Below are positions 4,747 through 32,636 of a DNA stretch of 38,501 nucleotides, one piece after another. Below the pieces are notes generated by a model. The model made no database searches. It was given only the letters and a program-made list of their open reading frames with translations, and had not been told where the DNA came from. The position numbers and the translations under genes are program-made. How positions within the stretch are numbered: the stretch's first letter is position 1; every line of letters begins with the position of its first letter. Location: the NCBI GenBank assembly GCA_913055845.1, contig CAJXKO010000017.1, positions 1 through 38,501 of the forward strand, written 5' to 3'. Source of the DNA: an uncultured Bacteroidota bacterium (lineage in GTDB: Bacteria; Bacteroidota; Rhodothermia; Rhodothermales; Salinibacteraceae).

Positions 4747-5265
4747 CTAGCGACTGATCGGGTTGCTCACGGGGCGAGGTCGCTTCGACAGGTAGAGATC
4801 GACCTGGTCCACGGCGCCCCGGATGGGGAGCCGCAGGAGGTCGAGAATCAGGTCCTCGCTCGCCCCTTCCTCCGCGCGTAGCCGCAGGGTGGCGTCCGCG
4901 GTGTCCGAGATTGCGTAGTCGAACTCGATAGGGGAGGTCGTGTCCGGAAAGAGCGTGAGCTCGTCGCCATCCACGTCGAAGGTGCCCTGCACGATGAGAT
5001 CATCGTCGGTTTCTTGCTCCCGGCCGATAAACGTAAAAAACTCCCCGCCCTCGGCGCCCCGCCGCAGTGTGAGCACCAGCCGGTCGTACTGCGTGTCAAG
5101 TTGCTCCTTCACCGAAATCCCATCGACCGACAAGTCTGTGGCCCGCCAGGAGCCGGGCAACTCGCCGAGATCGTCCTCATCGGCGAGGTCGCACCCGGCC
5201 AGCATCCACACCAGTCCAATACACGCAGCCACGATGGTCCAGGGTCGCTTCAACAGAGGTCGCAT
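4747..5265 (-). CDS. Small lipoprotein, possibly lipocalin-like
   Basis: A 172-residue exported lipoprotein of unknown function. The N-terminus is a lipoprotein signal: positively charged start (MRPLLKRPW), hydrophobic stretch, then lipobox LAG-C with Cys25 as the predicted lipidated residue. The mature part begins with LADEDDLGELPGSWRATDL and continues with alternating strands (LVLTLRRG, FFTFIGRE, IVQGTFDVDGDELTLFPD). This resembles lipocalin-like small beta-barrel lipoproteins common in Bacteroidota. The ATG at 5265 is chosen because it starts the signal peptide; an upstream in-frame start at 5373 would bury the signal. It converges with dut and is divergent from ahcY. The lipoprotein assignment is strong; the fold is a guess from strand pattern. 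Confidence 0.8.
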   Translation of the reverse strand: MRPLLKRPWTIVAACIGLVWMLAGCDLADEDDLGELPGSWRATDLSVDGISVKEQLDTQYDRLVLTLRRGAEGGEFFTFIGREQETDDDLIVQGTFDVDGDELTLFPDTTSPIEFDYAISDTADATLRLRAEEGASEDLILDLLRLPIRGAVDQVDLYLSKRPRPVSNPISR

Positions 5266-29304: not shown

Positions 29305-29934
29305 ATGCCGATGGTTGCGTTTCGGATCCTGCTTGTTGGGAGTGCACTGATTCTGCTACCGGCGTGTGGCGACGAGACAGCGTCGACCAGCGACTACGAA
29401 CAAACGGTCATGCAGGACCGCGTTCAGCGCGACATGCGGATGCGGGACAAAGAAAGTGTGGTTCCCCCTCGCCGCCGGGATGCCTTTCAGGGCCTTGACT
29501 ACTACAAGGTCGATCCGGCGTACCGCTACGTGGTCCCGCTTGACCGCTTTGCCTCCCCCGACACGGTGATGATGGCGGAGAGCACGGGAGGACTCCGCCC
29601 GCAGGCCCAAATTGGAGAGGTGACGGTGCCCCTCCCCACCGGTCCCGTCGACCTGATGGTGTTTCGGGGCGAGAGCGACGAGCCGAGGGGGCGTCGATGG
29701 ATCCCGTTTGCCGACTCGACCAACGACCACGCCACGTACAAGGGCGGCCGCTACGTGGATCTCAAATCGGCCTCCGGCGACTCGGTGGTAGTGGACTTCA
29801 ACCGGGCGTACAATCCCACCTGCGCGTACAACCCGGAGTTTGCTTGCCCGCTACCGCCCCCTGAAAATCGGCTGAATGTGCCGGTGCCGGCGGGGGAACG
29901 ACGGCCAATTTTTGGGGGCAGCAGCTCATCGTAA
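29305..29934 (+). CDS. DUF1684 lipoprotein
   Basis: A 209-residue lipoprotein. The signal ends in lipobox LPA-C with Cys21. The C-terminal half has the DUF1684 pattern: VPLPTGPVDLMVFRGE, WIPFADSTNDHATYKGGRYVD, then VDFNRAYNPTCAYNPEFACPL and PPENRLNVPVPAGE. The conserved end block with its two cysteines (Cys in NPTCAYN and in EFACPLP) suggests a disulfide or metal site. The molecular function of DUF1684 is not known to me. The ATG at 29305 is used; a second ATG at 29311 would give a nearly identical signal. It follows the DUF411 gene and precedes the TPP riboswitch, so it marks the end of that transcript, though I see no terminator. Confidence 0.85.
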   Translation: MPMVAFRILLVGSALILLPACGDETASTSDYEQTVMQDRVQRDMRMRDKESVVPPRRRDAFQGLDYYKVDPAYRYVVPLDRFASPDTVMMAESTGGLRPQAQIGEVTVPLPTGPVDLMVFRGESDEPRGRRWIPFADSTNDHATYKGGRYVDLKSASGDSVVVDFNRAYNPTCAYNPEFACPLPPPENRLNVPVPAGERRPIFGGSSSS

Positions 29935-29993
29935 CGCTGAGTCGTCGCTGTGGGCGAGTTGACGGTGGGCCGCAGAGCGGATTCGTTGGAACT

Positions 29994-30001
29994 TACATTC
30001 G
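29994..30001 (+). promoter_or_regulatory. Candidate -7 element before the TPP riboswitch
   Basis: TACATTCG fits TAnnTTTG with one mismatch. Transcription would start at about 30008, right at the first strand of the aptamer stem P1. No TTG lies at the right distance upstream, so the call rests on position. Confidence 0.35.
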
Positions 30002-30002
30002 A

Positions 30003-30100
30003 CCCCCGAGGCCAGGGGTGCCCCGCCGCTCGGCGTGGGCTGAGAGAGACCCTCCGAACCTGATCCGGTTCGTACCGGCGCAGGAAGCGTCGTCGCACTC
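30003..30100 (+). promoter_or_regulatory. TPP riboswitch (THI element)
   Basis: A complete thiamine-pyrophosphate aptamer. The conserved blocks are in order: AGGGGTGCC (30014-30022), GGCTGAGAGAGACCCT (30038-30053), CGAACCTGATCCGGTT (30055-30070) and CCGGCGCAGGAA (30075-30086). P1 can form between CGA-GC (30007-30012) and GC-TCG (30087-30092) with one mismatch; P2 pairs GGGT (30016-30019) with ACCC (30049-30052). The match to the THI box is strong. It controls the short-chain dehydrogenase gene starting at 30175. Confidence 0.95.
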
Positions 30101-30127
30101 CGAGACGAGTCTGGAAGGGACGATTCG

Positions 30128-30162
30128 CCCCTGGCTTCCTCGTTCGTTTCACTCGAAGCCAG
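30128..30162 (+). promoter_or_regulatory. Switching hairpin of the riboswitch expression platform
   Basis: CTGGCTTC (30131-30138) pairs perfectly with GAAGCCAG (30155-30162), ending 12 bases before the ATG at 30175. The same left arm, as CCCCTGGCTTC (30128-30138), can instead pair over 11 bases (one G-U) with GAGGCCAGGGG (30008-30018), which is part of aptamer stems P1 and P2. The two pairings exclude each other, so folding of the aptamer should favour the hairpin next to the start codon. Confidence 0.65.
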
Positions 30163-30174
30163 ACCCCATACGCC

Positions 30175-30939
30175 ATGCTCGATCTCCACCAGCAAGTCGT
30201 TGTTATTACCGGGGCCAGCCGAGGGCTCGGGGCCGCCATCGCCCGCGCTTTTGGACGAGAGGGAGCCCGGGTCGTGGTGAACTACCACCAGAGCGCGGAG
30301 CGTGCCAAGGCTGTCGCCGCGGATATCGGCGAGCGGGCCCTTCCGGTACAGGCCGACGTGCGCGCTCCGGACGCCGTGCAGGCGATGATTGACACTGCCA
30401 CCGACCACTTCGGCACCCCTGTCACCACGGCGGTCCACAACGCCCTCGTGGACTACCGCTTCGACCCCGACGCCCGGGCGACCGTCGACACGATTGAGTG
30501 GGCCGACTACCAGGCCCAGCTCGATGGCTCTGTGAAGGGGGCACTCCACCTGTTGAAGGCCTGTCTGCCGGGGATGCGGGCCGCGGGCACGGGGCGCTTC
30601 ATTGGAATCAGCTCCAATCTCGTGCAGGACCCGGCGGTGGCCTACCACGACTACACGACCGGGAAGACAGCGCTCCTGGGGTTTGTGCGGAACGTTGCCC
30701 AGGAGCTCGGAGAAGAAGGCATCACGGCCAATCTGGTGTCGGGCGGACTGCTCGACGAGACGGACGCTAGTGCCGCCACCTCGGACGCCGTGTTCGACAT
30801 TATCGAGCAAAACACGCCCCGTGGGACGGTGACGACGCCGGAAGAGGTAGCCGACGCTGTGTTGTTCTTTGCCTCCCCTTGGGCCCGCGCGGTCACTGGA
30901 CAGAACTTGATTGTCGACGGTGGGCTCGTCATGCAGTAG
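30175..30939 (+). CDS. Short-chain dehydrogenase/reductase under TPP control
   Basis: A 254-residue classical SDR, similar to 3-oxoacyl-ACP reductase (FabG). It has the cofactor motif TGASRGLG (12-19), the catalytic Ser147 in GISSN, and the YTTGK motif with Tyr160 and Lys164. An NYHQSAERAK stretch after the second strand (about 41-50) suggests NADP preference. The C-terminus TGQNLIVDGG is typical. The gene is the only one between the TPP riboswitch and tsaB, so control by thiamine diphosphate is direct. FabG itself is not normally thiamine-regulated, so this enzyme probably acts in thiamine synthesis, salvage or precursor metabolism. I recall that an SDR named oarX was listed among predicted THI-regulated genes; this was not checked. 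The ATG at 30175 lacks a clear Shine-Dalgarno. Confidence 0.9.
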   Translation: MLDLHQQVVVITGASRGLGAAIARAFGREGARVVVNYHQSAERAKAVAADIGERALPVQADVRAPDAVQAMIDTATDHFGTPVTTAVHNALVDYRFDPDARATVDTIEWADYQAQLDGSVKGALHLLKACLPGMRAAGTGRFIGISSNLVQDPAVAYHDYTTGKTALLGFVRNVAQELGEEGITANLVSGGLLDETDASAATSDAVFDIIEQNTPRGTVTTPEEVADAVLFFASPWARAVTGQNLIVDGGLVMQ

Positions 30940-30984
30940 TCCCGCAGCCCCGCGACTCTTTCCGTACGCTTCGATTCGATCCTG

Positions 30985-31689
30985 GTGCTACTTCTCGCCC
31001 TCGAGACCGCTACGACCACCTGTGGAGTGGCCATCCTACGAGACGACGCCGTGCTTGCGTCTGCTCACCTGCATCGCCCCCGCGTCCACGCCGAGCGCCT
31101 GACGCCGCTTGTGGAGGATGTGCTTGCCCACGCCAATGTGCAACCGGGAGGGCTGGACGCGGTGGCCGTTTCGATGGGACCAGGCTCGTATACTGGGCTC
31201 CGCATCGGCGTGAGCACGGCGAAGGGGTGGGCGCTGGCCACTGGTGCGGACCTGGTCGGCGTACCCACCCTTGCGGCCTACACCGCGCAACTGCGACCCG
31301 TCGTCGCAACAGGCGATGTGGTCTGCGGTCTCCTTGACGCCCGACGCGACGAGGTCTACGCGGGGGCGTACCGCCGTACGTCCGACGGGATGACCGAGCA
31401 CGTTCCCACGAAGGCACTGCCGGCGGCGGCACTCCCCGACTGGATGGGGGCCGTAGACGGCCAGCTATGGTTGGTGGGCGATGGGGCGCCGAAGGCAACT
31501 GAGTCGCTCGCTGCGGTTGACGCGCCCCGCACCCTCGTACCGAGCCACGACCTCCCCCCGTCCGCGGCCTGGGTGGCCCGCTGGGGACGGCAGCGTCTGG
31601 CAACGGACGGCCCTGACGACATTGAAGGCTTCGAACCGTTGTACGTCAAAGACGTGCATGCGGCACCGGCCCCCTCGCCCTTCGCCTGA
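30985..31689 (+). CDS. tsaB: tRNA threonylcarbamoyladenosine synthesis protein TsaB
   Basis: TsaB (YeaZ) is the scaffold partner of TsaD and TsaE in adding threonylcarbamoyl to A37 of tRNAs that read ANN codons. The 234-residue product begins LLLALETATTTCGVAI, the usual ASKHA-fold phosphate-1 strand. It has VSMGPGSYTGLRIGVSTAKG and, further on, LLDARRDEVYAGAY, both typical of TsaB. The start is a GTG at 30985. It lies 45 bases after the dehydrogenase gene in the same direction, so it may lie partly under TPP control by read-through. The next gene, accD, probably has its own promoter. Identification is secure. Confidence 0.93.
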   Translation: MLLLALETATTTCGVAILRDDAVLASAHLHRPRVHAERLTPLVEDVLAHANVQPGGLDAVAVSMGPGSYTGLRIGVSTAKGWALATGADLVGVPTLAAYTAQLRPVVATGDVVCGLLDARRDEVYAGAYRRTSDGMTEHVPTKALPAAALPDWMGAVDGQLWLVGDGAPKATESLAAVDAPRTLVPSHDLPPSAAWVARWGRQRLATDGPDDIEGFEPLYVKDVHAAPAPSPFA

Positions 31690-31695
31690 GTTTTG

Positions 31696-31729
31696 TTTGG
31701 ACATTGAGGGCCGGCGTCCTGATCTTTTG
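31696..31729 (+). promoter_or_regulatory. Candidate accD promoter
   Basis: TTTG at 31696-31699 is followed after 22 bases by ATCTTTTG at 31722-31729, which keeps the TTTG end of the TAnnTTTG motif but has AT for TA. Transcription would begin near 31736, about 55 bases before the accD ATG. Confidence 0.3.
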
Positions 31730-31790
31730 CGGCGGTCCTGGGCGGGAGCATCCTCACTATCCACCCCCTGACACCTGTCCCCACATCCCC

Positions 31791-32636
31791 ATGCCCTGGT
31801 TTCGGCGCGAGAAGGCCGGCATCCGTACCACCCGTGAAGAGCAAAACGAAATGCCGGAAGGCCAATGGGTGAAATGTCCAAAGACCGGCGAGATTACCAA
31901 CCGGCGCGAGCTGGAAAACAATCTGCTGGTCTTTCCCGGCTCGGGCTACCACTTTGGGATGGACAGCCATAAGTACTTCAACTTCCTCTTCGACGACGGC
32001 GACTACGACCTACACGACACCGATCTGCGGTCTGTCGACGCCCTCGATTTTGAGGATCGGAAGTCCTACGCGCAGCGGCTGGAGAGCGCCGTGGAGGACA
32101 CCGGACAGAACGAGGCCGCTCAGGCAGCAACCGGGACCGTGGGGGGACACCCAGTGTCGATGGCGGGGATGGACTTTAGCTTTATCGGGGGCTCGATGGG
32201 CTCGGTGGTCGGCGAAATTGTAGCGCGGGCCATCAAACGGGCGTACACGGATAAGATGCCGCTTATCACCATCGCGCAAAGTGGCGGGGCTCGCATGATG
32301 GAGGGTGCCCTCAGCCTCATGCAGATGGCCAAGACCAGCGCCCACCTCACGCGTCTCGACGACGCCGGGCTGCCTTTCATCTCGATTCTCACGCATCCGA
32401 CCACCGGCGGCGTTACAGCATCCTTCGCCATGCTTGGGGACATCCATATCGCCGAGCCGGACGCGCTCATCGGGTTTGCTGGGCCGCGCGTGATCCGGGA
32501 AACCATCGGCTCCGATTTGCCGGAGGGATTCCAAAAGTCGGAGTTCCTGCAGGAGCATGGGTTCGTGGACATGATCGTGGATCGTCGCCGCATGCGTCGC
32601 CGCATCATTGGGCTACTCGATTTGCTGATGGAGTAG
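31791..32636 (+). CDS. accD: Acetyl-CoA carboxylase carboxyltransferase subunit beta
   Basis: Forms, with AccA, the carboxyltransferase that moves the carboxyl group from biotin on AccB to acetyl-CoA, giving malonyl-CoA for fatty-acid synthesis. The 281-residue product starts MPWFRREKAGI, the normal AccD N-terminus. The zinc-ribbon region at 26-52 keeps only one of four ligands: Cys29 is present, while the others read Thr32, Phe48 and Ser51 (KCPKT ... LVFPGS). Loss of these cysteines is, from memory, usual in Bacteroidota AccD. The catalytic core is intact: MDFSFIGGSMGSVVGE, SGGARMMEGALSLMQMAKTS, PTTGGVTASFAMLGDI and LIGFAGPRVIRET. The ATG at 31791 is chosen; an upstream in-frame start at 31704 would add 29 unlikely residues. 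A decayed gene fragment follows directly. Confidence 0.95.
   Translation: MPWFRREKAGIRTTREEQNEMPEGQWVKCPKTGEITNRRELENNLLVFPGSGYHFGMDSHKYFNFLFDDGDYDLHDTDLRSVDALDFEDRKSYAQRLESAVEDTGQNEAAQAATGTVGGHPVSMAGMDFSFIGGSMGSVVGEIVARAIKRAYTDKMPLITIAQSGGARMMEGALSLMQMAKTSAHLTRLDDAGLPFISILTHPTTGGVTASFAMLGDIHIAEPDALIGFAGPRVIRETIGSDLPEGFQKSEFLQEHGFVDMIVDRRRMRRRIIGLLDLLME

Follow-up and report, generated by a model that had tools for sequence, protein, structure and literature searches.

A TPP riboswitch with a probable translational switch precedes an SDR predicted to reduce a pyrimidine aldehyde to HMP

Few steps of HMP salvage are known to us: TenA, which is a hydrolase acting on aminomethylpyrimidine, kinases and transporters. 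Rodionov et al. in 2002 reportedly described a thiamin-regulated oxidoreductase gene of unassigned function, 'oarX', under THI elements. This oarX may be the SDR family analysed here, and TPP regulation of the SDR gene has then probably been noticed before. We found no report of the SDR gene among the titles and abstract openings of the open-licence literature listed, and no open-licence paper that has 'oarX' together with thiamin; the matches listed for 'oarX' by itself concern sheep genetics and other unrelated subjects. Searches for LuxC with thiamin and riboswitch, or for HMP carboxaldehyde with thiamin, returned no open-licence paper that was relevant by its title or abstract opening. The gene is not named in the accessible parts of PMC3766115, PMC12637900, PMC5613172 and PMC7793946, and the main texts of PMC3766115 and PMC5613172 contain none of the words 'oxidoreductase', 'dehydrogenase' and 'reductase'. 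According to the accessible part of PMC12637900, a need for external HMP is the most prevalent thiamin-related auxotrophy, and TPP riboswitches are known to act both at transcription and at translation (accessible part of PMC5613172).

We analysed a window of 38,501 nucleotides, this being the whole stretch of DNA considered (contig CAJXKO010000017.1 of GenBank assembly GCA_913055845.1), from an uncultured member of the Salinibacteraceae. Computation supports the aptamer, its alternative pairings, the cross-phylum association of the SDR with TPP riboswitches, the partners of the SDR in operons and the set of thi genes in the genome. Our reading, held with moderate confidence, is that a TPP riboswitch that probably acts on translation controls an SDR that most likely forms HMP by reducing a pyrimidine aldehyde.

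The aptamer and its switch

We used cmscan to search the window against Rfam. The TPP riboswitch aptamer (RF00059) matches at 30004-30104 on the forward strand with 55.2 bits (E 2.7e-08), exceeding the gathering score of 54.3 by a narrow margin, and is the sole match at gathering scores in the whole window. The covariance model thus bears out the aptamer that the original prediction had recognised by eye. The window genome carries two TPP riboswitches in total. Like other RF00059 members, the riboswitch has the conserved core, and an aptamer strand and the platform pair in mutually exclusive ways; unlike the usual case, consensus P1 is weak, with three of five pairs forming on folding, and the target is an SDR rather than a named thi gene. 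Judged by sequence and folding, this is probably a real vitamin-B1-sensing RNA switch, which would bind TPP. The riboswitch itself is ordinary; the novel part is the reductive salvage step proposed below, which is a prediction.

Three forward-strand elements make up the switch, and their positions agree exactly with those originally predicted. Strand A (GAGGCCAGGGG, 30008-30018) comprises the 5' strands of aptamer P1/P2 and can form 11 pairs with strand B (CCCCTGGCTTC, 30128-30138). Strand B can alternatively form 8 pairs with strand C (GAAGCCAG, 30155-30162), closing a hairpin at 30131-30162. The coordinates likewise confirm that 12 bases separate the hairpin end at 30162 from the ATG at 30175.

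Folding with and without an aptamer constraint, a check proposed with the original prediction, gave two states. In the free fold of 30000-30200 the A:B stem has a mean pair probability of 0.96 and the hairpin 0.03; with the aptamer consensus pairs forced, 30131-30138 pairs with 30155-30162 at a probability of 0.98. The energies, from a program that includes neither ligand nor tertiary contacts, are -79.2 kcal/mol for the free fold, -78.4 with the hairpin forced and -65.5 with the aptamer forced. Forcing the hairpin thus costs little and forcing the aptamer much, and the latter cost would need to be made up by TPP binding and by folding during transcription. None of 500 dinucleotide shuffles of the whole platform matched the 11-pair A:B stem, and none of 500 shuffles of the region 3' of strand B matched the 8-pair B:C hairpin.

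These two folds suggest how the switch would work. In the absence of TPP, the aptamer 5' strand at 30008-30018 would pair with 30128-30138 and leave the start region open (ON). Once TPP is bound, the aptamer would retain 30008-30018, freeing 30131-30138 to fold with 30155-30162, and the resulting hairpin ahead of the ATG would lower initiation (OFF). That the platform instead controls transcription, through termination, is improbable. TPP riboswitches elsewhere do use both modes (accessible part of PMC5613172), but here no T-run follows the hairpin at 30131-30162, the hairpin sits just ahead of the start codon, and a scan of 29850-31100 found no terminator-like site on the forward strand, by which we ruled out a terminator in the leader. 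Control at the level of translation thus seems the more likely mode. The same scan found no promoter-like site, and no Shine-Dalgarno sequence ahead of the SDR start is visible by eye.

Versions of the strands are kept in 15 of 17 Salinibacteraceae leaders, as judged by eye. In 12 of the 17 leaders no more than 25 of 500 shuffles reached the best A:B stem, and the same is true of the best B:C stem in 10 of the 17; A:B is at chance level in L059, L060, L062 and L063, which are mutually close relatives, and in L074. Among the 15 leaders with recognisable strands, A:B is favoured in the free fold (probability >0.5) in 7, and strand B pairs with its own 3' side in 13 when the aptamer is left out of the fold. 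L008 and L010 were excluded from the leader test because the start-codon rule failed on them.

For covariation we aligned the strands in 14 rows, excluding L069 and L074, in which strands B and C were not recognisable, and merging L067 into L065, the aligned strands being identical. Over these rows, pairing in the 8-pair A:B core amounts to 92.0%, a value reached by 1 of 500 shuffles, and the covariation score of the core was equalled by 7 of 500. Two of its pairs have changes on both sides (a count equalled by 203 of 500 shuffles), and the full 13-pair version is weaker, with a covariation score equalled by 32 of 500. Two of five A:B measures do not exceed shuffles. In L065 and L067, G to A in strand A, C to T in strand B and G to A in strand C occur at matching positions, and L068 has a G-U intermediate at that site. 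Because kin sequences may beat such shuffles without any structure, we regard the A:B covariation as moderate support. For B:C, 85.7% of cells are paired over the 14 aligned leaders (23 of 500 shuffles as high), but the covariation score is not above shuffles (183 of 500 equal it). The covariation that the original prediction proposed to look for is thus present for A:B, whereas the B:C pairing is conserved with ordinary covariation. Given this, and with A:B favoured in free folds of just 7 of 15 leaders, we regard the mechanism as likely but short of proven. The predicted translational shut-off by TPP draws on both alternative folds and the lack of a terminator; judged by the sequence, the riboswitch likely acts at translation and is OFF with TPP.

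The SDR and its association with TPP riboswitches

The SDR gene (30175-30939, forward strand) encodes 254 amino acids and is a predicted thiamin-precursor aldehyde reductase. The protein is a full-length member of NCBIfam NF006393 (PRK08642), scoring 410.9 bits against a curated cut-off of 292, and its predicted structure (mean pLDDT 89.8) matches generic FabG-like SDRs, in keeping with the original description of a FabG-like enzyme; the structure does not reveal the substrate. A PDB sequence search with the window protein alone at 1e-30 gave no match, and no close relative appeared in the PDB sequence searches. The classical SDR active site consists of Ser/Thr, Tyr and Lys plus a fourth residue, Asn, which has its role in FabG. 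In an alignment with 2uvd the catalytic Ser/Thr, Tyr160 and Lys164 are retained, the latter two being invariant in 25 sequences, but at the fourth position Ser stands in the profile where FabG has Asn. An extra loop precedes Trp109 relative to the FabG-like alignment. FabG function was rejected as an assignment, the FabG equivalog cut-offs not being reached (TIGR01830, 131 vs 297.75 bits; NF004198, 157 vs 296). Although the whole-length NF006393 match lies far above its cut-off, the family name, 3-oxoacyl-ACP reductase, denotes fatty acid synthesis, whereas the regulation and neighbours of the SDR point to thiamin.

The gene had been described as a lone dehydrogenase. It has no thi neighbours in the window, but a tsaB-like ORF (PF00814, 30985-31689) follows on the same strand 45 bases past its stop, with an accD-like ORF (PF01039) next on that strand; the two ORFs span 30985-32636. 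Given this arrangement, co-transcription with tsaB is possible.

We searched 27 genomes of the window's family, 9 of which had no SDR match; one further copy, in G021, is truncated at the end of its contig and was left out of the count. RF00059 lies directly upstream at E<=1e-5 in all 17 full-length copies, scoring over the gathering score in 12. Three genomes of the window's genus (G007, G008 and G009) have no SDR match, yet carry two TPP riboswitches each. Outside the family, a TPP riboswitch stands ahead of the SDR, or of the operon that contains it, in Gemmatimonadota, Bacillota, alphaproteobacteria, a Rhodococcus plasmid and Lujinxingia. Twenty-three plasmid records match the SDR, and 11 of the 13 scanned have the riboswitch, the one in Priestia at 49 bits, below gathering. 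Among Paenibacillaceae, 2 of 148 genomes match the SDR.

In a tree of 36 SDRs and 10 outgroups, from which L077 was left out because it failed the motif filter, 30 of the 36 SDRs are TPP-led, 27 of these with scores above gathering (the exceptions are L010, L012 and Priestia). L020 and L021 were counted as TPP-led from longer upstream stretches, as their operons start beyond the short flank. The six SDRs lacking a TPP riboswitch are L017, two Caballeronia copies and three order-level relatives. The L017 leader (4900-4930) resembles only the start of a TPP aptamer and its core is missing, a remnant that reflects either deletion or assembly error. The Caballeronia plasmid copies (L099 and L103) gave no TPP riboswitch match when scanned at gathering scores, and no thi gene is annotated beside them. 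Order-level relatives in G033, G038, G045 and G056 (L076-L079) reach 318-349 bits with NF006393, which is above its cut-off, and no TPP riboswitch was found in the 0.5-1.5 kb scanned upstream of them; NF006393 therefore seems to mix two subfamilies. As a control, 13 of 37 distant SDR loci (L022-L058) were scanned, and none of the 13 has a TPP riboswitch.

The original prediction had named orthologous SDRs consistently outside TPP control as evidence against it, and the tree instead has most of them under such control. This cross-phylum association strengthens its suggestion that the SDR catalyses an unassigned salvage step. Recurrent TPP control in several phyla suggests a role for the enzyme in remaking the pyrimidine moiety of vitamin B1 from salvaged compounds.

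Operon partners and thiamin gene content

No thi gene adjoins the SDR in Salinibacteraceae, Gemmatimonadota, Sporosarcina, Lujinxingia or Exiguobacterium. TPP-led operons have the order thiM-thiE-thiD-SDR in alphaproteobacteria and SDR-thiM-thiD-thiE in Paenibacillus; the operons of L015 and L102 were assigned by ORF order and start sequences. In Rhodococcus, Pseudochrobactrum and Mesobacillus the SDR is paired with a luciferase-like monooxygenase (PF00296), the TPP-led pairs lying at L098 6001-8090, L101 5983-8051 and L105 5004-7145.

A sister clade has eight SDRs, and each of them belongs to a TPP-led operon that also encodes relatives of LuxE and LuxC (PF04443 and PF05893) and a transporter, either a Xan_ur permease or one of the NMT1/THI5-like ABC type. 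The members are Desulfosporosinus, Lactiplantibacillus, Niallia, Priestia, Azospirillum, G069, G070 and G132 (loci L019, L106, L109, L107/L111, L108/L112, L151, L154 and L155). The LuxE/LuxC genes of G069, G070 and Priestia were found by tblastn with the Azospirillum genes, and the Priestia riboswitch is again the one below the gathering score. These LuxE/LuxC operons belong to the sister clade and not to the window's own. In Niallia (L109), tandem TPP riboswitches at 176-284 and 363-472 stand before ThiW and the LuxE-LuxC-SDR genes. The G132 operon contains LuxE, LuxC, ABC transporter and SDR genes, thiF, thiE, thiG, a ThiO-like ORF and thiD (ThiF, ThiE and ThiO named from start sequences); thiC is found some 20 kb from it on that contig, and the operon misses only a pyrimidine source.

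LuxE and LuxC relatives convert an acid to an aldehyde, as established for lux systems, and an SDR acting after them would make the alcohol. The sister-clade loci share with the LuxC/LuxE fatty acid reductase the same Pfam domains and the predicted activation of an acid and its reduction to an aldehyde, but differ in being TPP-led, in having a nucleobase-type or NMT1/THI5-like transporter and an SDR, and in their predicted substrate, a heterocyclic acid. They are a possible carboxylate-reducing salvage module.

The window genome is 94% complete, and draft genomes may miss genes. It has thiG, thiO, thiD and thiE (182.0 bits against a cut-off of 145.1), together with a second, thiE/tenI-like gene under that cut-off (114.8), and tenA lies behind the one other TPP riboswitch that it carries. 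It has no thiC match, thiC being present in 1 of the 27 family members (absent from 25 of the 26 others), and a set of 60 genomes, among them the window genome, gave no match to thiM or to the TPK domain (PF04263). The visible TPP route in the window genome therefore needs external HMP, and tenA and the SDR, both of them under TPP control, would answer this need. This gene content argues for a pyrimidine substrate over thiazole or thiamin. In other SDR-bearing genomes thiC is present in 8 of 12 and thiM is matched in 7 of 12, so the role of the SDR there would be supplementary or different. The idea that the SDR replaces ThiC everywhere was rejected, since these 8 genomes have thiC.

The proposed reaction and its alternatives

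From regulation, partner chemistry and gene content we infer an enzyme with a particular substrate, direction and cofactor: the SDR would most likely reduce 4-amino-2-methylpyrimidine-5-carbaldehyde to HMP, which ThiD and ThiE would then use. The original guess of a step in thiamine metabolism or salvage is thereby narrowed, the evidence pointing to the pyrimidine (HMP) rather than to thiamin generally. The proposal resembles TenA pyrimidine salvage in being TPP-controlled and in supplying HMP, with tenA behind the window genome's second riboswitch, but the enzyme here would be a reductase rather than a hydrolase.

A role on the thiazole side, in which the SDR would reduce thiazole acetaldehyde to hydroxyethylthiazole for phosphorylation by ThiM, would also fit the alphaproteobacteria and Paenibacillus, whose TPP-led operons have the SDR next to thiM, and ThiW stands ahead of the module in Niallia. 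We consider it unlikely, as thiM is unmatched in all 60 genomes and in 5 of the 12 other SDR-bearing genomes, and the window genome already has the thiazole genes thiG and thiO. Still less probable is restoration of oxidised thiamin, that is, reduction of thiamin aldehyde to thiamin or, together with LuxE/LuxC, of thiamin acetic acid to thiamin. Carboxylate-aldehyde-alcohol chemistry would suit the hydroxyethyl arm of thiamin and TPP control speaks for this reading as well, but the sister-clade transporters are of nucleobase and NMT1/THI5 types, and PF04263 is absent from all 60 genomes. We know of no other route from free thiamin to TPP without TPK, so free thiamin in those genomes would lack a known route. 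Least credible of all is an ordinary FabG, a 3-oxoacyl-ACP reductase that stands behind a TPP riboswitch by chance: fold and database naming are FabG-like, but TPP control repeats over several phyla and contexts and is absent from the distant SDR loci scanned, and the protein differs from FabG in the Ser that replaces Asn and in the loop ahead of Trp109.

Reduction of the pyrimidine aldehyde to HMP is thus the reading that we favour. More tentatively, and with somewhat less confidence than not, we propose that bacteria of several phyla share an unrecognised branch of thiamin salvage that works by reduction and is controlled by TPP riboswitches. A pyrimidine carboxylate would be imported and activated by the LuxE relative, the LuxC relative would reduce it to the aldehyde, and the SDR would yield HMP. 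Lineages of the window's type would keep the last step alone, with the aldehyde coming from elsewhere, and in other lineages the luciferase-like monooxygenase would make the aldehyde from an amine.

If oarX is the SDR family, the TPP association is already known, and what is new is the LuxE/LuxC link and the pyrimidine argument. If the proposal is true, the misleading database name 3-oxoacyl-ACP reductase would be corrected, and an aldehyde reductase, together with a carboxylate-reducing module, would widen the range of pyrimidine forms that bacteria can use.
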